A DNA stretch of 64,000 nt from Rheinheimera sediminis (GCF_004005375.1 NZ_RZUF01000009.1:62001-126000), one strand, 5' to 3'; positions 6,041-15,826 are shown, counted from the stretch's first letter. Notes: a model not told the origin generated them from the sequence alone. Numbers and translations are program-made.

Positions 6041-9000
6041 TTAGAAGTTGCCACGCATCACTAAAGCGATACGACGGTCAGCAACAAACCAGGAGCGACC
6101 CGCTTCCTGACCTTCATTGTTTAACAACATCAGGGTTTCAGATTGGGTATTGGTCAGGTTAGTCGCCTGCAAACCTATACTGAAGTTTTCCGTCATATTG
6201 TAAAACACTGAACCGTCCAACTGACCTGTGTCGTCGTACCACAGAGGCGCTTTACTGATCACGTCTCTGGTTGTTAACAGGTACTTAGAGCGCCAGTTGT
6301 AAGCCAGTCGTGAGCTCCATTTGCCTTTTTCATACATACCCACCAGGTTAAAGGTGCGATCCGACTGTCCTTGTAACGGTACATTGTCTAAGTTGACGCG
6401 TATACCTGTATCTGAAAAATCATCACCAAGCCAACTTTCATCTTCGATATCCGTTTGGTTGTTTGGTACACCACTGGCGTCTATATAGGTAAAGCTGGCT
6501 TGCATACCTAAGCCATTCCAGGGTTCAGGCAGCATGTCATAAAACTGTTGATAAGACAGTTCTAAACCATCCATTTTGCCATCGCCACCGTTAGTGGTTG
6601 AACTGATCAAGGCTGTTTGAGTTGCGCCGCTGACCGGGTTGGTCATGGATTGCGGAAATGCACCCTGCACAAAGTAATTTTTCAAGTCTTTATGGAATAA
6701 GGTGGCGCTCAATTGGCCTACGTCAGCAAAATACCATTCCAAAGAGATGTCGTACTGCACTGACTCCATTGGTTTCAGGTAGGGGTTACCACCACTGCCA
6801 GTCCAGGCCGGTACAAAGGCACGTTGGATCATATTGTCCTGTGGCGGAGGCGGATTATCCGGATCAATAACCTGAATAGGCCTGACTGACTGCACAGATT
6901 CATTGCCCAAACTTACTCTGTTTTGCACATCTCCCATATCAGGTAGAGCCACAGCTTTTGAAAAAGCAAATCGGCTAATCAGCTCGTCAGTCAGCTCTAC
7001 CTTGATATTAAAGCTGGGCAACAGCATAGTGAACTTGGTGTCAGCCGTCAGGCGCTGTTCCGCATCATTACCAAAAGCTCTGTCGTTATCAGGCAGATAG
7101 TTAATTGGGTCACCCGCCCAGCGATTTTCCGGGGCTTCCAGTGCAGCCTCCAGATCAGCATAAGTGCCTGCTGCTATCTGCTGGTTCAGATAATCCAGCA
7201 CCACAGGTTGAGTCAGCTGCTGGTTTTGCAGTGCTGCTGGTGGCAGGAAATCCGGTAGCAGGTCTGGGAAAGTGACAAAGCCATCGGCCTGACGGTCCAG
7301 TACCACATAACGTAAACCCAGGTTACCGCTGTAGCGTAAATCGCCGTCACCTTCAAAGTTCAAGCGGAAATACACTGCTTTGTTGGTTTCAGTGGTGTTG
7401 TTCACTTCACCAGGGGTGAAAATGCCAAATTCTGAATCTACACCAGCGCGTTGTGGATAGGGGACCCAACTGCCGCCAGCAGATTGGAATGGCTGCCGGG
7501 CAGGGTTTGCGCCCATAATAGAGCGGACATAGGCTTCTGTGGCATGTATCGTCTGGTTGCCCGGTATATTGGCAATGCCACCACCATGGAAGTCTGACCA
7601 ATCGACCAATTCAAAATCAGTGGCTGAGCCTTCCAGCGTATCCAACCAACCTGCAGGAGCAGCGCTGCTGAAATCTGGTGCTAAAGCCCCCCAGTTCCAG
7701 CTGGTGGAACGCACGGTTTGCTCACGTTTGGCATAACGCACGCCAGCCTGAATAGAGGTCAGAATACCTTTATCGTCGAGCTGATAAGTAGCATCTAAAC
7801 GAGTGGCGAATGAGTCACCTTCTGAGCGTTCATAGTGATCCATGGCGCTGCGCAGCAAATAGGAGCTTGGGTCTTGGAAATAATTGCTGTCACCTGCCGC
7901 ATCACCGCTAAAACCAGGATAGCCGTTGGCAAATAACTCCGGATTGGCGTCTCTATAACCAAACCAAGGGTCAATTAATGCCATAGTTGGAGTACTACCA
8001 CTGACATCATAGGCCTGTCCGGCAAAGGCACCGGTATGAACCACCACATCATCGTCACTGGTTTCAGCCTGTACCAGCTGGAAGTCGCTGGTTAATTCCA
8101 GGCGATCATTAGGTTTCCATTTAAAATTCAGCGAAAAATCTTCAACCAGAGTTTCAGTATCTTTGACCCTGCTGTCAAATTGAGTCATGTAGCCGAACTG
8201 GCTGCGTGGGTTATCACCCCAAGCTCTGGGCACTCTGTCGACGTTGCCGTCGGCAACACGCCAGCCGTCCACACCCTGAGTGATCACACCGGATTCAAAC
8301 AAGCCTTGGTCATCGAATTCAAATTCAGTGCCTTCCAGAGGGCGGGTTCTGCGATTTTCTATGCCGTAGTAGCCGCCCTGATATTTCACGGCCTGCTCAT
8401 GCCAGGATAAGCGTGAGTCGGAACGAATATACTGAAAAGTACCAAGGAAGCTGTCATCGCTGTTTTGCCACTGCAAAGCCGTCGACATACCGGTACGCTC
8501 GCGGTCATCAAATTTAGTCAGTAAGTTAGCTGCATTGGGCAACCACACAGTTCCATTACCATCAGTACCCACAAAATCTTCAGCGCCAGCTAAAGTTCTG
8601 GCATAAGCCTGAACATAGGCGTCGGACTGAATACCATGCGACTCCCCATAAAGCTGAGAGTGCGCGCCGTTTAGCAAAAAGCCAAATTCACTGCCATCAT
8701 CGAGCTGATATCTGTCGCTATAAATAGCCGACATAGTAGGGCTGCCTTTCTCAGCTAAATCGCCGTAAGAATAGTCGCCGCTGATAGCAAATAGACGGCT
8801 GCTTGAGTCAAAAGGCTTTCTGGTTCTCAAACTGACTGTGCCACCAATACCGCCTTCAATCATATCGGCGGTCTGGTTTTTATAGATGTCCACTCCGCCC
8901 ATTAATTCAGGGGAGACGTCCTGAAAGGATAAGCCCCGACCTGAGTTGGCGGTAAAAGAATCACGGCCATTAAACTCGCTGCGGGTTTGGGTCATACCCC

Positions 9001-9379
9001 GGATAATAGCGCCGCTACCTTCGACACTGAAGTGATCCGGGTCGTCAGGGCCGGCGAAGCGCTCAATCGAAACGCCTGGAACCCTTTGTATCGCTTCCAG
9101 CACGCTACGATCCGGCAGTACACCAATATCTTCAGCTGAGATACCGTCTACTACGGTATCTGCCAGACGTTTTACGTTCTGAGCGCTTTGCAAATTCGCT
9201 CTAGTGCCTTTCACTTCTATGATTTCTACGCCTTCTTTAACCGCTTCCTGCTCTTGCACTTTTTCAGCGTCTTGCGCATGAGCCGACACCGACATGCCCA
9301 CTATGGCCATTGCCAGCAACGATCGTTTGAATCTGGGTTTGTCAGACCTTTTCTCTGTTAGTTTTCGTGTTGATGCCAT
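6041..9379 (-). CDS. TonB-dependent receptor (large Xanthomonas/Caulobacter type)
   Basis: This protein of about 1112 residues is an outer-membrane active transporter. A signal peptide ends at SAHA-QD, followed by a short linker and the plug domain (NVKRLADTVVDGISAEDIG.. VLEAIQRVPGVSIERF, and GGIGGTVSLRTRKPF). The rest is a long beta-barrel rich in alternating aromatic segments, ending in the terminal phenylalanine typical of barrel proteins (MRGNF). I place the start at 9379 because a strong AGGGGGAG ribosome site lies 7 bases before it. The open frame continues 13 codons further upstream without such a site. Receptors of this type are often encoded beside halogenase and DUF6445 genes, as here. 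The ligand is unknown. Confidence 0.92.
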   Translation of the reverse strand: MASTRKLTEKRSDKPRFKRSLLAMAIVGMSVSAHAQDAEKVQEQEAVKEGVEIIEVKGTRANLQSAQNVKRLADTVVDGISAEDIGVLPDRSVLEAIQRVPGVSIERFAGPDDPDHFSVEGSGAIIRGMTQTRSEFNGRDSFTANSGRGLSFQDVSPELMGGVDIYKNQTADMIEGGIGGTVSLRTRKPFDSSSRLFAISGDYSYGDLAEKGSPTMSAIYSDRYQLDDGSEFGFLLNGAHSQLYGESHGIQSDAYVQAYARTLAGAEDFVGTDGNGTVWLPNAANLLTKFDDRERTGMSTALQWQNSDDSFLGTFQYIRSDSRLSWHEQAVKYQGGYYGIENRRTRPLEGTEFEFDDQGLFESGVITQGVDGWRVADGNVDRVPRAWGDNPRSQFGYMTQFDSRVKDTETLVEDFSLNFKWKPNDRLELTSDFQLVQAETSDDDVVVHTGAFAGQAYDVSGSTPTMALIDPWFGYRDANPELFANGYPGFSGDAAGDSNYFQDPSSYLLRSAMDHYERSEGDSFATRLDATYQLDDKGILTSIQAGVRYAKREQTVRSTSWNWGALAPDFSSAAPAGWLDTLEGSATDFELVDWSDFHGGGIANIPGNQTIHATEAYVRSIMGANPARQPFQSAGGSWVPYPQRAGVDSEFGIFTPGEVNNTTETNKAVYFRLNFEGDGDLRYSGNLGLRYVVLDRQADGFVTFPDLLPDFLPPAALQNQQLTQPVVLDYLNQQIAAGTYADLEAALEAPENRWAGDPINYLPDNDRAFGNDAEQRLTADTKFTMLLPSFNIKVELTDELISRFAFSKAVALPDMGDVQNRVSLGNESVQSVRPIQVIDPDNPPPPQDNMIQRAFVPAWTGSGGNPYLKPMESVQYDISLEWYFADVGQLSATLFHKDLKNYFVQGAFPQSMTNPVSGATQTALISSTTNGGDGKMDGLELSYQQFYDMLPEPWNGLGMQASFTYIDASGVPNNQTDIEDESWLGDDFSDTGIRVNLDNVPLQGQSDRTFNLVGMYEKGKWSSRLAYNWRSKYLLTTRDVISKAPLWYDDTGQLDGSVFYNMTENFSIGLQATNLTNTQSETLMLLNNEGQEAGRSWFVADRRIALVMRGNF

Positions 9380-9692
9380 CAGCACTCTCCCCCTTCTTGT
9401 TTTTGTTTTGCCACTCAACAGCAGTCAGTTTGTCTCCCCCGGCTGTCCCTATGGCGCTGTTTGCCAGCTATTTTTATTTCCTGGACGATTCAGGCTAACG
9501 TACAGCTTTTTTCCACGTTATGTTCGTCATAGCTGCCCAAATTGATAGTGCGTTGTGTGGGTCTGGACGTCAAACCGTCTCAGAAAAAACGAAATAGCGA
9601 AAACAGAATTCGCACCTTTTTTGGGCGGCTTTGCTCGATGCTGGTGCTGATGAGTATTAAATGGATATTGAAGAATGTAAATTCAGTTAACT

Positions 9693-9896
9693 TTTGTACC
9701 TTAATTTAGATGGTTGTGGAGTCTTGCGGGCTGTTGATGTAGTGGCTTTAGCCTAAGCTACATACTGAATTTTATGCACCAAAAATGCACAAGGCAGAGA
9801 GGCTGTTGTGACCTGGCTGAGTTAGTACTTTGTTTAGGCGATAAAAGCTATTGACACACGTTTTTTTATCATCAAGTATACATTTGTACCTTAATT
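9693..9896. repeat. Pair of identical 14-bp direct repeats upstream of the exporter locus
   Basis: TTTGTACCTTAATT occurs at 9693-9706 and again at 9883-9896, exactly 190 bp apart, in the AT-rich region between the divergent TonB receptor and peptide/exporter transcription units. The second copy lies just after a possible promoter. Identical spaced copies in a divergent regulatory region suggest a regulator binding site, but no known regulator consensus is recognised. Confidence 0.4.
9851..9882 (+). promoter_or_regulatory. Candidate promoter for the peptide/exporter operon
   Basis: A perfect -35 hexamer TTGACA (9851-9856) is followed by AAGTAT (17-bp spacer) or TATACA (20-bp spacer) as a weak -10. 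It lies about 50-80 bp before the ribosome site of the mini-peptide gene at 9931. The weak -10 and the adjacent 14-bp repeat suggest regulated rather than constitutive expression. Confidence 0.4.
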
Positions 9897-9930: not shown

Positions 9931-10111
9931 ATGAAAAAATGCGTTCTTTTTTAAACACAAAAAGAAGTTATTTGTAGGAGTTTCCTTGCTGATCGCTAGT
10001 GCTTCTGCCTATGCGTGGTGTACTAGCCATACCAGTTGTTTCGGGTCTGGACGGTGTATCACTACCACAGTCTGTGGTGATGATCCTAAACTACCAGTTA
10101 TCAGCAAATAA
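9931..10111 (+). pseudogene. Secreted four-cysteine mini-peptide, frameshifted at a homopolymer
   Basis: A strong ribosome site (AAAGGAAG) precedes ATG at 9931, but that frame stops after 7 codons. Removing one base from the A6 run (9934-9939) or the following T6 run opens a 59-codon frame ending at 10111. It would begin MKNAFFFKHKKKLFVGVS, continue with a hydrophobic core and end a signal peptide at ASAYA. The mature part is about 31 residues, starting WCTSHTSC. Its four cysteines are at residues 30, 36, 42 and 48, a perfect C-x5-C-x5-C-x5-C spacing. It directly precedes a MacAB-like exporter operon that also encodes CPPC and glutaredoxin proteins, so a secreted disulfide-rich peptide substrate is likely. 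The frameshift may be a real inactivation, slippage-controlled expression or a sequencing error. No family was recognised. Confidence 0.55.
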
Positions 10112-10147
10112 TGCTGAATCAATAATCTAAATCGAGGTTCGTTTCAG

Positions 10148-11386
10148 GTGCATCGTTACATCTTATTAAAATCTCAGTCTTCTTTAGCCAGACGAGTCAG
10201 GTTATCCATACTTGTGATGGTGTTGTTTGGTCTGGTATGCGGCAGCATCTGGGTATTATCAGGTCCCAGTAGTGCAGTGAAGCAACGACTGGCCTCACCT
10301 TCTACCGTCTGGAGCGAACAAAGACAGCAAGCTGTTTTTGGTACTGGCAAAATTGTCAGCCTGCAGCAACAACTGATCACAGCACCGGAAAATAGTGTGG
10401 TTGAAAGCCTGGTTGTATCACAGGGACAAGTGATTGAAGCTGGCGCTGCGTTGTTGATATTAAAAAATTCTGCGCTGTTACGTGAACAAAAAGAAGCAGA
10501 GCTTGCTGTAGCCGAAGCCAGCTCGGACGTTGCTTTGCGCAAAAGTGAGCTGAATACCCAACAACTGCAGCTTGAGATGGCAACAGCCAAAGCCGAAAGT
10601 GAATACAAACGACAGTTATTGGAGCTGGCTGCTAATGAAAAGTTAAAAGACAGTGGTGTCTTGCCGGCGGTGAAATACGAACAATACAGGCTGATGGCCG
10701 AGCAGGCAGGTTTTGAAGCCAACAATCTACGTAAACAGTTTAAGTTGTTCCGCCAGTCTGTTGCTGAGCAAAACACTGCTATGGCGATGAAACTTAAGGT
10801 GGTAGCAGAGCGTGCCAGCTATCTGGCGGAACGCTTAGCTGCTTTAACTCTTTATGCCCCTGATACTGGTGTGATTAAAAACCTGAGTGCTGACGTAGGT
10901 CAATCTGTCAGTCAGGGCCAGGTGTTGCTGGAACTGGTTAAAAGCAGCCCTTTATATGCTGAAGTATTTGTTCCTCAGTATTCAGCCCAGGCGCTGACTG
11001 TCGGAGATGCTGCCACGGTTAAAACCCCGGCAGGAGATTTTCCGGGGCAGGTTGAGTTTATTGACCCTATAGTGCGTGAAGGTGCAATCCAGGTGCGGCT
11101 GCGTTTGACGGCACAAAGTCACAATCTGAATCTGGACCAGTCCGTTGAAGCACAAATTCAGTCTAGCAGCACCACTGCTGTTGCTGCTGTACAGGCACCA
11201 GGCGATTTTGAGCTGTTTGATCAATGGTGGGTGTATCAGTATCAGGATGGCCAACTGATGAAAAGTCAAATTACAGTCCGCCAGAGTGCCAAAGGTCATC
11301 TGGAACTGACTCCTTCAATTTCTGCCGGTGAGCAGGTTGTGCTCATACCGGCCCAACAGGCCGATCAAGACGTATACCGCTTATGA
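10148..11386 (+). CDS. HlyD/MacA-like periplasmic adaptor (membrane fusion) protein
   Basis: This 412-residue protein starts at GTG 10148, ten bases after GAGG. It has one N-terminal membrane anchor (about residues 18-38) and then a biotinyl-lipoyl-like half-motif (ENSVVESLVVSQGQVIEAGAALLIL). A long Ala/Glu/Lys/Leu-rich coiled-coil hairpin spans about residues 100-230. The second lipoyl half (LYAPDTGVIKNLSADVGQSVSQGQVLLEL) and beta-barrel segments follow. This is the architecture of adaptors that link an inner-membrane ABC exporter to an outer-membrane channel. It overlaps the ATPase gene by 4 bp (ATGA), so the two are co-translated. No TolC-type gene is present in the window, so a housekeeping TolC is presumably used. 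Confidence 0.88.
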   Translation: MHRYILLKSQSSLARRVRLSILVMVLFGLVCGSIWVLSGPSSAVKQRLASPSTVWSEQRQQAVFGTGKIVSLQQQLITAPENSVVESLVVSQGQVIEAGAALLILKNSALLREQKEAELAVAEASSDVALRKSELNTQQLQLEMATAKAESEYKRQLLELAANEKLKDSGVLPAVKYEQYRLMAEQAGFEANNLRKQFKLFRQSVAEQNTAMAMKLKVVAERASYLAERLAALTLYAPDTGVIKNLSADVGQSVSQGQVLLELVKSSPLYAEVFVPQYSAQALTVGDAATVKTPAGDFPGQVEFIDPIVREGAIQVRLRLTAQSHNLNLDQSVEAQIQSSSTTAVAAVQAPGDFELFDQWWVYQYQDGQLMKSQITVRQSAKGHLELTPSISAGEQVVLIPAQQADQDVYRL

Positions 11387-12066
11387 CGCAGAGATCCGAA
11401 CTTATCAGGTTAGAACAACTTTGTTTTTCTTATCATGGAACTGAACAGTTAGTATTAGATCATCTGGACCTGGTGATAGAGCAACAAGACTATGTGGCTA
11501 TTCTTGGCACTTCAGGTTCTGGCAAAAGCACGCTGTTATCTGTTTTAGGTTTAGTCAATCCGCCGGGACAGGGGCACTATTTTTTGCTGGGACATGATGT
11601 CAGACAACTGACAGATAAATCCGTTGCTTTGCTGAAAAACCGGGAAATTGGTTTTATTTTTCAAAACTTTAACCTGCTCAACCATCTGAGTGTTTATCAG
11701 AATCTTTGTGTCCCTTTAAGTTACAACTCTGACATTCCCAGATCTATGTATCGGGAAAAAGCTGAACAGGTGCTGCAGCAGGTAGGCATGCTGCAGTTTA
11801 GTGACCGTCTGCCTTCTCAGCTGTCAGGTGGTCAGCAGCAAAGGGTGGCTATTGCACGGGCTATCATTAATAACCCTTCGCTCATTTTGGCGGATGAACC
11901 TTCAGGAAATCTCGACAGTGCAACAGCTGAGCTGATTTTCGATATTCTGCAGCAATTGAATGAGGCGGGTAAAACCATTTGTCTGATCACCCATGATGTT
12001 GGCTTCGCCACTAAAGCCAAGAGAGTTCTGCGTTTGTCTGACGGGCGATTTATCTCAAATGGCTAA
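11383..12066 (+). CDS. ABC exporter ATPase (MacB/LolD type)
   Basis: The 227-residue protein is a complete ABC nucleotide-binding subunit. Walker A is GTSGSGKST at residues 42-50, the Q-loop region reads GFIFQNFNLL, the signature is LSGGQQQR, and Walker B plus catalytic Glu is LILADEP, followed by a D-loop and the switch His (LITHD). The sequence is of the LolD/MacB ATPase group, which powers permeases acting on periplasmic or outer-leaflet substrates. The start overlaps the adaptor gene by 4 bp and the stop overlaps the permease gene by 8 bp, so adaptor, ATPase and permease form one tightly coupled set. Confidence 0.93.
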   Translation: MTQRSELIRLEQLCFSYHGTEQLVLDHLDLVIEQQDYVAILGTSGSGKSTLLSVLGLVNPPGQGHYFLLGHDVRQLTDKSVALLKNREIGFIFQNFNLLNHLSVYQNLCVPLSYNSDIPRSMYREKAEQVLQQVGMLQFSDRLPSQLSGGQQQRVAIARAIINNPSLILADEPSGNLDSATAELIFDILQQLNEAGKTICLITHDVGFATKAKRVLRLSDGRFISNG

Positions 12067-14416
12067 ATCGAAATTAGTAGCAGATTTACTGCAAAACTGG
12101 TGGTTACGCCATAAAACCAGTGCTGGTACCTGGCTAAGCTTGTGGTTGGTGTCCTTACCTATTGCCTTATTGTTGCAGGTATGGGCTATTCAGAATACCT
12201 ATCTGAGCCCTGGTTTTGCTGCGCTAAATCCTTCAGTCACTGTGACTCAAATAGTGCATCAGCAAGGTACAGCTCCATCACCCTTGGCTTCATATCTGGT
12301 GAAAGAATTCAAGCAACGGGCGCAACTGACAGTGGTTTACGAAAAAATGCGCTGGCTAAAGTGGTCTGAAGCTGATCAGGAGCATGAAGTTGCCGCGTCT
12401 TTTATTTCCGGAGGTTTTAATGCTTTAGGTGTGAAACCTGCGTTGGGTAGCTTTGTCGCCATGGAGTTTCCGGCTGCTGATACGCAGCTGCAGGTTGCCA
12501 TTAGTTATCAGTTCTGGACTTCCCATTTCCAGCAAAAAAATGTGATAGGTCATACCCTGATGCTTAACGGCAAACTGGCTTTGATTGCTGCTGTGATGCC
12601 AGAGCGCTTTGTGAGTTTTCGTTCGGAACAGCATGCGGATTTAGTCGTGCCTTTTAGCTTTTTGCCTTTGCTTGGATTGGCCGATGCTGACCAACTTAGC
12701 CCCGATGTATTCAGTTATTTGCTGCATAACAGTCCACTTTCCCCGCAACTGGCTCAGCTTGAAGTTGAGCTGAAAAATGAAGCGCTGCTGTTTGATGATG
12801 AAAGTTTTACTACATCAGCAGCCTTTGGTATGTCGGTCAGACAATTTGAGACTATTAAAGCCAGACTGGGATTACTCAGTCAGCTGTTTATGGGGCTGCT
12901 GGTATTTAGTTTGTTGGCCTTTACCAGTCATATCGCCAGTGCCAGCGACAAAAGGCTGAACGAAATGTCGCTGCGCAAAATGCTTGGAGCCACTTCAGCA
13001 CAATTAGGCTATCAACGTCACCTTGAAATGTTGATCATCCTCAGCCTGGTATTGGTTTTTTCTCTGCTACTGTTTTGGCCCTGTGCTTCGTTATTAGGCC
13101 TCATGTTGCCGGACATTCCAGCTACAGAGTTTGAGTTGTCAGCGGCCAAACTCAGGGTGTTGCTGCAGCTATTGCTTGTTGTCTCTCTGGTGATCAGCCT
13201 GATCCTGTATGCGCAACACAGATGGACTCAGCATTCGCTAGGTCGCGGTGCTACTGTGTCTAAAGCGGAGAAAATGCAGACCTTTGTACTACTGGCTGCA
13301 CTTTTTGTACTGAGTAGTGGCGCCCTGACATATTCCAGCCAATTGCTGCTGCAACAGTGGCGCTACAGCCAGCTGGACCGTGGATATAACACTGAGCAGT
13401 TGTCTATTGTCACTTTCGATTTTCCCAAATTTGGTGGCACTTATTTTGTCAATAAACTACCGTCATTACTGATCAGCAACCTGATGGCAACTGCTGAAAT
13501 CCAGCAGGCAGCCCTGACTTCGACACCTGTGCTGCACCCGGCTGCCTCCTACGTTACTTTTTACACCAGTACAGGCGCGGCACTAACGGGGCGGAATAAT
13601 GCACAGGTATTAACTAATCATATTTCACCTAACTACTTTGAGTTGATGGGGATCGAACTGCTACAGGGAGAAAGCCTGAATTGGGACAACTACTGGCAAG
13701 TGGTGATATCCGAGTCGTTGTGGCAGCAGCACTTTAAAGACATACCTTTATCTCAGGCACAAATAACTCAGACCATGAATGATGGTGAGCGCCGCGCTAT
13801 TCAGGTGGTTGGTGTGGCCAAAGATATTCATCGCATTAACCCTGACGATCCTGTGACTCCAATTGTGTATCGTGTCACTCCTACTATTACCGGGCAGGAG
13901 TTCATAGTACTTAAAAGTACAGCATCAGTTGAACCTTTGCAGCAACTGGTGCAACAGGAGTTGAGTAAGTTGGACACCACCTTGCAAAATCCAAAGGTGA
14001 TATCAGTGTCAGACTTGATTCGTCAGCAGCAAGCACCGCAACTGGCGCTGTTGAGTACATCTCTGGTGCTGACTTTGGTGGTATTAGTCAGTAGCCTGTT
14101 ATTTTGCCTGAATGCGGTCAGCTTACTGACCAGAAAATCAGCCAGGGAGTTGGCTTTGCGCCTGACTTTAGGTGCAAGGCGTCGTCAGTTAGTGCTGAAA
14201 GAGCTGTTCACTTTGTCAGTCATTTATTTACCACTGGTCCTCTCTACTGCTCTGGCGTTGCCAGATTGGTTTACCCGGCTGGACAGAATCATTAGCAATT
14301 CGGCTATCTACCTGCTGTTTATCGGATTTAACCTCATATTTTTGTTGTTTATTTTGGTGGTGTTGTATTTGTCGGTGCGCAAGATAAAACACCAGAGCTG
14401 GCAGTATCTGCAATAG
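12059..14416 (+). CDS. ABC exporter permease, FtsX/MacB-like with duplicated core
   Basis: About 785 residues if translation begins at ATG 12059, which overlaps the ATPase stop by 8 bp. The open frame extends 22 codons further upstream inside the ATPase gene, which is unlikely to be used. The layout is an N-terminal membrane segment (about residues 25-45 of the short form), a large periplasmic MacB_PCD-like domain, three membrane segments, then a second periplasmic domain and three further segments. FtsX-type repeats are visible as LNEMSLRKMLGAT and later ARELALRLTLGARR. Such double permeases act with MacA-like adaptors to push periplasmic molecules outwards. The substrate is proposed to be the cysteine-rich peptide encoded upstream. 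Confidence 0.88.
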   Translation: MAKSKLVADLLQNWWLRHKTSAGTWLSLWLVSLPIALLLQVWAIQNTYLSPGFAALNPSVTVTQIVHQQGTAPSPLASYLVKEFKQRAQLTVVYEKMRWLKWSEADQEHEVAASFISGGFNALGVKPALGSFVAMEFPAADTQLQVAISYQFWTSHFQQKNVIGHTLMLNGKLALIAAVMPERFVSFRSEQHADLVVPFSFLPLLGLADADQLSPDVFSYLLHNSPLSPQLAQLEVELKNEALLFDDESFTTSAAFGMSVRQFETIKARLGLLSQLFMGLLVFSLLAFTSHIASASDKRLNEMSLRKMLGATSAQLGYQRHLEMLIILSLVLVFSLLLFWPCASLLGLMLPDIPATEFELSAAKLRVLLQLLLVVSLVISLILYAQHRWTQHSLGRGATVSKAEKMQTFVLLAALFVLSSGALTYSSQLLLQQWRYSQLDRGYNTEQLSIVTFDFPKFGGTYFVNKLPSLLISNLMATAEIQQAALTSTPVLHPAASYVTFYTSTGAALTGRNNAQVLTNHISPNYFELMGIELLQGESLNWDNYWQVVISESLWQQHFKDIPLSQAQITQTMNDGERRAIQVVGVAKDIHRINPDDPVTPIVYRVTPTITGQEFIVLKSTASVEPLQQLVQQELSKLDTTLQNPKVISVSDLIRQQQAPQLALLSTSLVLTLVVLVSSLLFCLNAVSLLTRKSARELALRLTLGARRRQLVLKELFTLSVIYLPLVLSTALALPDWFTRLDRIISNSAIYLLFIGFNLIFLLFILVVLYLSVRKIKHQSWQYLQ

Positions 14417-14428
14417 GGAATTTAGGTT

Positions 14429-14923
14429 ATGCGTCTTTTATTTTCGTTATTATTTGTTGTGACTTCTGTGCTTGCTCAGGCGAATGAGGTCACTCTGAAG
14501 GTTTCAGCCAAAGACTATGATCAGGTTGGCAAACCTGCATTTACGCCTGAAGTATTTTTAATTAACAGGCAGGGCGAGTTTTTGTTGAAGTTTAATCAGG
14601 TGACCAGGGATTTGGCCGCACAAATTAATGCAGAGCATCAGGTGCTGGGGACTGTGGGATCGCATCCGCTCTCGAAAGTGACAAAAGACAAATACAACTT
14701 TGCGGACTCAGACTATACGTTGGTGATGATTGGCGATTCTGAGCCGAAGAAATTTTGTCCGCCTTGTCTTATTCAAGCCAAAATTAATAGTGCTGTGTTA
14801 AAACAAATTAAAGATAAAAACATCAGGTTACTCAATGTGCATAAGGTCTATTCAAGCGAGCGAACTATTGAGTTTTTACCAGAAGAAGCGCTCGGCCAGT
14901 ATTATCCGGAGCTTAAGCAATGA
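14429..14923 (+). CDS. Periplasmic CPPC-motif protein, unknown family (copy 1)
   Basis: This 164-residue protein has a signal peptide ending near SVLAQA. The mature part begins with beta-strand-rich segments (EVFLINRQGEFLLKF) and contains an isolated CPPC motif at residues 110-113 (KKFCPPCLIQ) followed by a Lys-rich helix. CPPC is a redox-type thiol pair, so the protein may be a thioredoxin-fold or thiol-handling factor, but I recognise no named family. It starts 13 bp after the permease stop, and the next gene overlaps its stop by 4 bp. A tandem copy follows. In context it may reduce, oxidise or chaperone the cysteine peptide in the periplasm. Confidence 0.75.
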   Translation: MRLLFSLLFVVTSVLAQANEVTLKVSAKDYDQVGKPAFTPEVFLINRQGEFLLKFNQVTRDLAAQINAEHQVLGTVGSHPLSKVTKDKYNFADSDYTLVMIGDSEPKKFCPPCLIQAKINSAVLKQIKDKNIRLLNVHKVYSSERTIEFLPEEALGQYYPELKQ

Positions 14924-15422
14924 CTGGTATTTTACTTCTGTTGTTATTAGCTTCGAGCAGTGTGCTTGCTCAGACTGATGATGTGACTCTGAACATTCCA
15001 ACTCTGGACTATCGTAAAGTCGGGAAACCTGTATTTATCCCAGAGATCTTTCTGATTAATCAGCGTGGCGAATTTTTATTGAAATTTAATCAGGTGACCC
15101 GGGACGGGATCTGGTTGCGCAGATTAATGCAGAACATCAGATATTGGATACTCTTGCATCGCACCCACTGGGAAAAGTCACTCAAGGTAAATATAACTTT
15201 GCGGATTCAGACTATACGCTGGTGTTAGTTGGTGTTTCCGAGCCGGAGAAATACTGCCCGCCTTGTGTGATTCAGGCCAAAATAAACAGAGCTGTAGTAA
15301 AACAAATCAAAGATAAAAACATCAAGTTGTTAACTGCGAACACTGTGAGTCCGGGAGAACGAACTTTTCAGTTAATGTCGGAAGAAGAATTCAACCAACA
15401 TATAGGAAACCTTAAACAATGA
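14920..15422 (+). pseudogene. Second CPPC-motif protein, broken by a 5-bp tandem duplication
   Basis: This is a tandem paralogue of the preceding gene, with a signal peptide ending SSVLAQT, the same LINQRGEFLLKFNQVTRD block, and later YCPPCVIQAKIN. The reading frame changes in the middle. At 15100-15109 the sequence is CGGGA repeated twice; deleting one copy restores a 165-codon frame aligned to copy 1 through QINAEHQ-L. As it stands, translation from 14920 leaves the family frame after about 60 residues and ends at 15228. The C-terminal half remains open from about 15144. The damage looks recent because the rest is well preserved. The start overlaps copy 1 (ATGA), and the stop overlaps the glutaredoxin gene (ATGA). 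Confidence 0.85.
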
Positions 15423-15826
15423 GCCGCTTTCTTTTTGGTACCTGGGTTCGTAACTATGGCGCTTATCTGCTTTGTGTTTTGTTATTAGCTTTTTCAGCCT
15501 ATTCTTACTTCAGCAGAAACCAGGATGTGGAGCTTATGGTCACTGGAGACTTTAGCCATTTCGGCGTGTCCGCAAAAACACCAGTAGTGATTTACACCTC
15601 AGAACACTGTGCTTATTGCAAAGCGTTAAAACATGATTTGCAGCAGTTGAAGCTAGACTATAAAGACATCAGCCTGCAGTCCGATCCAGAACAGTTTGCG
15701 ATATTAAAAGCTGCTGAACTAGAAGTAGTTCCAGTGGTTTTTATCGCCGATACCAGACTTGTTGGATACAACCAGCAGCTGACCAGGCAGATCCTGGCAG
15801 AGAAAGGCCTGATTTCTCTGCTCTGA
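15419..15826 (+). CDS. Membrane-anchored glutaredoxin-like protein
   Basis: The 135-residue protein has one N-terminal membrane helix (about residues 13-31) and a short linker. A glutaredoxin/thioredoxin-fold domain follows with the active-site CAYC at residues 64-67 (YTSEHCAYCKALK) and the cis-proline segment VVPVVFI followed by a glycine-containing helix (RLVGYNQQLTRQIL). The anchor and signal-like N terminus place the thiol domain on the periplasmic side. It overlaps the CPPC gene by 4 bp and closes the exporter operon. A role in reducing or shuffling disulfides of the CPPC proteins or of the exported peptide is inferred from position. Confidence 0.85.
   Translation: MSRFLFGTWVRNYGAYLLCVLLLAFSAYSYFSRNQDVELMVTGDFSHFGVSAKTPVVIYTSEHCAYCKALKHDLQQLKLDYKDISLQSDPEQFAILKAAELEVVPVVFIADTRLVGYNQQLTRQILAEKGLISLL

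Follow-up and report, generated by a model that had tools for sequence, protein, structure and literature searches.

The gene block described here, which lies in a window of 64,000 nucleotides from Rheinheimera sediminis, is read by us as a module for a bacteriocin-like peptide that can be dispensed with, unlike its pump. By analogy with known transporters, the pump together with a secreted CPPC protein would serve primarily for immunity and, where an intact peptide is present, also for its export, a reading that we hold with little more than even confidence. Relatives independently broke or lost the peptide gene while keeping the rest of the cassette, suggesting a protective role of the pump and the redox proteins against a peptide of bacteriocin type. 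The window itself would represent a state in which the peptide has been lost and the pump and the CPPC protein have been kept.

The block was confirmed as a co-oriented series of adaptor, ABC ATPase, permease, two CPPC genes and a glutaredoxin-like gene (Table 1; the window genome is labelled G000 and its sister genome, of the same genus, G015). Domain matches bore out the first-pass annotation, made from the sequence alone, in its MacA-like adaptor, ABC ATPase, double FtsX/MacB-like permease and membrane-anchored glutaredoxin. The adaptor scored above the Pfam cut-offs for PF13437 and PF16576, as a HlyD/MacA-type adaptor, and the ATPase above that for PF00005 (E 2e-31). Two stretches of the permease matched the MacB periplasmic core (PF12704, 52.6 bits against a cut-off of 27), PF02687 fell just short of its cut-off (24.7 against 25.5 bits), and the ADOP family model TIGR03434 gave 169.9 bits, below its curated cut-off of 622.3 bits. 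The glutaredoxin, with its CxxC, reached 39.2 bits for PF00462 (cut-off 22.9, E 8e-10). From the adaptor to the glutaredoxin, each gene overlaps the next by a few bases, with the sole exception of a 12-base gap 5ʹ of the first CPPC gene, so that co-expression of the block, as proposed earlier, is likely. The two tandem CPPC proteins that had been reported were found to be one intact protein and one split by a frameshift.

Table 1. Features of the peptide-exporter block in the window (positions counted from the first nucleotide of the window)
Feature	Position	Strand	Remarks
Promoter-like TTGACA-17-AAGTAT	9851..9879	+	Conserved in sister genome G015 (alignment); -10 weak, absent from consensus scan list
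Presumed original ATG of peptide gene, now out of frame	9931..9954	+	7 codons (MKKCVLF), then TAA
Broken small-peptide gene	9935..10111	+	Open frame: signal-peptide-like part, then mature part with C-x5-C-x5-C-x5-C (10016-10108); in-frame start lacking
MacA/HlyD-type periplasmic adaptor, intact, GTG start	10148..11386	+	HlyD_D23/HlyD_3 matches
ABC ATPase, MacB/LolD/FtsE type, intact	11383..12066	+	Domain match
Duplicated MacB/FtsX-type permease, ADOP-like, intact	12059..14416	+	MacB_PCD E 9e-14
Secreted CPPC protein, intact; probable circularly permuted thioredoxin domain	14429..14923	+	
Second CPPC gene copy, frameshifted	14920..15422	+	5-bp tandem duplication CGGGA near 15101-15110, frame break near 15105
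Membrane-anchored glutaredoxin-like protein, CAYC	15419..15826	+	PF00462 match

Between the peptide and a divergent TonB-dependent receptor gene (6041-9418, minus strand), which is adjacent in G015 too, the exact repeat TTTGTACCTTAATT occurs at 9693-9706 and 9883-9896, 190 bases apart. With up to two mismatches it has six matches within the window against 0.6 expected, and it is a possible operator. Beyond the receptor gene, the flanking genes are unlike between the two genomes.

Upstream of the adaptor, the first-pass annotation had placed a signal-peptide-bearing mini-peptide with C-x5-C-x5-C-x5-C spacing. The cysteine frame (WCTSHTSCFGSGRCITTTVCGDDPKLPVISK, stop codon at 10109-10111) is real and conserved in relatives, but the gene is incomplete, as no start codon in the peptide frame yields a usable signal peptide; the alignment shows the start region to be shorter by 5 bases than that of G015. 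A TTG at 9986 was rejected as an alternative start because it would leave only about ten residues ahead of the cleavage point and nothing comparable occurs in G015. We also rejected programmed frameshifting or stop readthrough as an explanation of broken starts in this family, since the lesions are unlike one another and the stop codon in one relative (G1102) is a tyrosine codon in its sister genome. Together with an upstream hydrophobic stretch, the cysteine motif was found 14 times in the 1.14 Mb of strand searched, and because 8 of these 14 occurrences sit exactly upstream of the adaptor, it is not a product of chance. No Pfam or NCBIfam family reached its cut-off for the peptide.

The AF2 model of one intact member consists of a signal helix and a beta-hairpin (strands 30-38 and 41-49, local pLDDT about 84-88, pTM only 0.32). 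In this model, of low global confidence, Cys 31 lies opposite Cys 48 and Cys 37 opposite Cys 42. Two laddered disulfides fit because the spacing C-x5-C-x4/5-C-x5-C is nearly symmetrical, and we infer the pairs C1-C4 and C2-C3, which would make the peptide a putative two-disulfide hairpin of tachyplesin/protegrin-like shape. The mature peptides are mostly neutral, unlike the cationic classical beta-hairpin antimicrobials, which counts against the bacteriocin reading.

Within the genus, the block was present in one other genome (G015) among 22, with peptide, adaptor, ATPase, permease, three CPPC genes and glutaredoxin. Across 397 genomes of the family, the permease profile located it in 10, which represent seven genera, and the CPPC profile added five genomes, all of one large genus, giving 15 loci in the same gene order. 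All 15 encode the adaptor, the ATPase, a MacB/FtsX-type permease and a secreted CPPC, CAPC or CEPC protein, and six of them a membrane glutaredoxin (G000, G015, G871, G911, G1144 and G1127). Two scans of genome contigs, one with the CPPC protein and one with the permease profile, found no relatives, tblastn of the two proteins in plasmids gave no matches, and a search of the genus around G062 (two genomes) added nothing. The status of the peptide in each locus was assessed by a search upstream of the adaptor, where relatives have a peptide gene of the spacing C-x5/6-C-x4/5-C-x5-C. A small cysteine peptide was recognisable in 11 of the 15 loci and every strong CPPC match adjoined an exporter, so the system of peptide, exporter and CPPC protein suggested by the first-pass annotation withstood the refuting conditions set for it there.

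The peptide gene is intact in four of these loci (G871, G911, G062, G833), broken or decayed in seven and not recognisable in four (G1107, G1179, G1140, G1127). The start is out of frame at an A-rich start in G000, a 10-bp tandem duplication lies within the signal peptide in G015, and the frame is lost at a poly-C tract behind the ATG in G292. In G866 a frameshift is accompanied by the loss of three of the four cysteines, G1102 has a nonsense codon at the cleavage site, G1159 has lost the start codon, and G1144 retains a remnant. G062 and G833 have an additional decayed copy upstream, and no intact paralogue elsewhere in the genome was found in the ten genomes searched. The exporter is damaged as well in G1159 (1-base deletion in the permease), in G1140 (adaptor stop, permease frameshift) and probably in G1127 (adaptor start), so that retention is not universal, a point against our main reading. 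Several features of single loci were also noticed. G015 (L010), whose peptide is broken, has the CPPC gene amplified to a tandem array of three; in G911, a second adaptor/ATPase/duplicated-permease set lies directly downstream of the cassette (L028, reverse complement, 10946-15501); and upstream of the cassette at L029 3358-4164 and L030 1658-2380 are proteins of 240-268 aa with a C-terminal CxxCPP, which may belong to the cassette in their genus.

Weaker CPPC matches led to ten further cassettes with the same four genes, mostly in other orders: CPPC-permease-adaptor-ATPase in G066, G088, G971 and G204, CPPC-adaptor-ATPase-permease in G085, G019, G030, G125 and G101, and a divergent, divergently transcribed cassette in G262, whose thioredoxin-like protein lacks CxxC. 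G125, G101 and G262 belong to other families. The small secreted cysteine peptide is intact in five (G085, G019, G125, G101, G262) and broken in four (G066, G971, G088 with a lesion in poly-A, and G030 with a nonsense codon), and none was seen beside the cassette of G204. Most of the peptides have a turn-like C-x4/5-C loop (CHGNDC, CVPGGC, CNADGC, CDSSGC) followed by a hydrophobic strand. In G262 (L119), LPAPML takes the place of CxxC, and a CC-containing small secreted peptide is intact. Two solo permuted-thioredoxin relatives with a CTAC motif and no exporter nearby (L140 7634-8095, on G085 contig 27, and L141 7785-8231, in G1155) are similar to each other and are perhaps orphan shields or have another role. 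Weak CPPC-profile matches at L099-L102, L118, L120 and L121 were discarded as ordinary TlpA/thioredoxin-type proteins. No description of the cassette was found in the open-access papers that our literature search covered, subscription papers and preprints being outside its scope.

Taking the 25 loci together, 9 have an intact peptide gene, 11 a broken one and 5 none; in 22 of the loci, each of the four larger genes (exporter and CPPC) has its full length. Of the peptide genes that could be recognised, 11 of 20 are broken, compared with about 4 of 100 other recognisable genes (Fisher p 1.4e-7, a guide only, as the loci are related). Between G000 and G015, dN/dS is 0.19 for the peptide versus 0.05-0.16 for the other genes (peptide pN versus pS, p 2e-4); the peptide was therefore under selection until recently, and the two unlike lesions are recent. 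In the near-identical G1102 and G1159 the peptide is broken by different mutations. The two differ at 8 positions over about 5,140 bases, and three of the eight, among them the nonsense codon and the start loss, fall inside the 141-bp peptide gene; a hand-made binomial estimate for this is about 0.001, or 0.018 if the gene boundary is set a few bases late and two differences are counted. G1107 and G1179 have in common a collapsed upstream region and no peptide, which could in principle reflect two losses rather than one shared. Their adaptor, ATPase, permease and CPPC genes show dN/dS of 0.06-0.14 at dS of 0.24-0.67, and this purifying selection indicates that the pump and the CPPC protein are useful without an adjacent peptide.

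The first-pass annotation had proposed that the peptide is secreted, folded through its disulfides and then exported by the ABC complex. This route has a precedent in the enterotoxin STII (see below), but the peptide cannot be made here as annotated. Since across relatives the peptide is the part most often broken or missing, and the exporter and CPPC genes are mostly intact and under selection, folding and export of the cassette's own peptide cannot be the main reason for its retention; protection against such peptides fits better.

The CPPC proteins did not reach the cut-off of any Pfam or NCBIfam model. In 20 sequences of the family, the CxxC cysteines are the only ones common to all, and the proline of a P-Q-x-x-L/F-N-x-x-G segment is nearly always present. 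The AF2 model (pLDDT 82.6, core near 95) runs in the order strand, hairpin 41-55, helices, strand 96-103, CPPC helix 111-126 and strand 132-140. The hairpin segment precedes the CxxC in this model and in 20 of 20 sequences, which is not the classical thioredoxin order. When the C-terminal half was moved in front, the 108-column TlpA/thioredoxin profile alignment scored 61.7 versus 49.4 in the natural order, and the CPPC N-terminal half alone scored 28.8 against the thioredoxin cis-Pro hairpin (maximum 15.3 over 200 column shuffles); the five templates were E. coli TrxA and four sequences taken from retrieved loci. Foldseek and VIA-align, both sequential aligners, gave no match above background for the CPPC model, and thioredoxins matched at Z 2.7-3.0 over one half only, as is expected if the halves are swapped. 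On these sequence comparisons, the CPPC protein is a probable circularly permuted thioredoxin domain: both the beta-CxxC-helix-beta half and the cis-Pro hairpin half of thioredoxin/TlpA-like oxidoreductases are recognisable, but in swapped order.

In the mechanism that we propose, an intact peptide would pass through Sec, lose its signal peptide and fold in the periplasm into a beta-hairpin with two laddered disulfides. The adaptor/ATPase/permease complex, working like MacB from the periplasmic side, would expel it via an outer-membrane channel, and the same pump could drive incoming peptide out, providing immunity; no dedicated separate immunity gene was seen, a point against the model. The secreted CPPC protein may act on the disulfides of the peptide, folding the cell's own and/or opening incoming ones, and action on incoming peptide is favoured because the CPPC protein is retained without the peptide. 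The membrane glutaredoxin, where present, would re-reduce it. If the peptide is costly or toxic and immunity pays among producers, the peptide would be lost repeatedly and the pump and CPPC protein kept. Toxicity, immunity and the direction of the redox chemistry are thus parts of the model that we infer. The bolder version, a Gram-negative family of Sec-secreted, disulfide-laddered hairpin weapons with immunity from a MacB-type pump and a permuted thioredoxin that opens incoming disulfides, and with loss of the weapon but not the shield selected many times independently, is speculative and in our view doubtful.

The cassette could instead, as in the first-pass annotation, be dedicated to folding and secreting a useful peptide (a signal, metal or redox peptide), which the CPPC protein and glutaredoxin fold and the pump exports, broken copies being ordinary decay once the function is unneeded. 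Nine loci do have intact peptide genes with ribosome-binding sites, and STII is a precedent for the path through Sec, Dsb and MacAB; however, the strong purifying selection on exporter and CPPC genes where the peptide is gone would be unexpected if they served only that peptide, and the independent lesions in near-identical genomes also speak against this explanation, which we consider unlikely. It is quite unlikely that exporter and CPPC protein act on other substrates, such as envelope-damaging peptides or lipids, by detoxification or export, with the small peptide as a changing hitch-hiker, leader or decoy rather than cargo. The substrates of MacB-type pumps are varied, orphan loci persist with no peptide at all, and solo CxxC relatives occur in G085, G1155 and G1176. 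Against this, the peptide is met again and again at cassettes that differ in gene order and come from several families; it has a signal peptide and paired cysteines, and its neighbour is a dedicated thiol protein.

Some lesions are of the slipped-strand type (poly-C in G292, poly-A in G088, the 10-bp tandem duplication in G015, the A-rich start in G000), and the short-tract frameshifts could partly be phase switches or sequencing errors. A phase-variable peptide gene, turned on and off as short repeats slip near its 5ʹ end and found off by chance in the sequenced isolates, would also agree with the purifying selection on the peptide between G000 and G015. There is, however, no common tract, the place and kind of lesion differ in every genome, and none of the nonsense codons (G1102, G030), the lost start (G1159), the lost cysteines (G866) or the deletions is a switch, so that we regard phase variation as improbable. 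If the reading as a peptide weapon with a retained shield is true, Gram-negative antagonism would gain a class of peptides that are unmodified and genetically minimal, along with a natural experiment on weapon loss with shield retention. The reading would also tie a swapped-half thioredoxin-like family to one substrate class and make immunity by reduction of disulfides directly testable.

Known systems share parts of this arrangement. The likeness to darobactin drawn in the first-pass annotation holds for the type of transporter, as DarBCDE, too, has its adaptor, ATPase and permease as separate proteins next to the gene of a small peptide, but not for the family: scores against the DarB, DarC and DarD equivalog cut-offs were far too low (26.4/700, 47.9/450 and 204.8/375 bits), and the cassette differs in its signal peptide and cysteines and in that no radical SAM enzyme was seen in the operon, as had been stated. 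In Bacillus, YknWXYZ, an adaptor with separate ATPase and MacB-like permease, protects against SDP, a small Sec-secreted disulfide peptide of 42 aa (PMC4887032). Unlike the cassette, that system is Gram-positive and has a single permease, its accessory YknW is a membrane protein and not a secreted CPPC protein, and SDP has one disulfide. SDP also has its own immunity protein, SdpI. The AS-48EFGH and Mr10EFGH enterocin transporters, again of adaptor, ATPase and permease, give both immunity and export, and they also occur as orphans in carriers that have no bacteriocin gene (PMC10598978). They come from Enterococcus and, unlike the cassette, have no thiol protein. Their substrates are circular or leaderless bacteriocins and are not known to be signal-peptide hairpins of the cassette kind. 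MacAB-TolC is a general pump unlinked to the peptide gene, with the ATPase fused to the permease, no immunity role and general Dsb enzymes; it nevertheless exports the heat-stable enterotoxin STII by the order of events proposed here, namely Sec transfer to the periplasm, disulfide formation and, last, release across the outer membrane by a MacB-type pump (PMC5985334).
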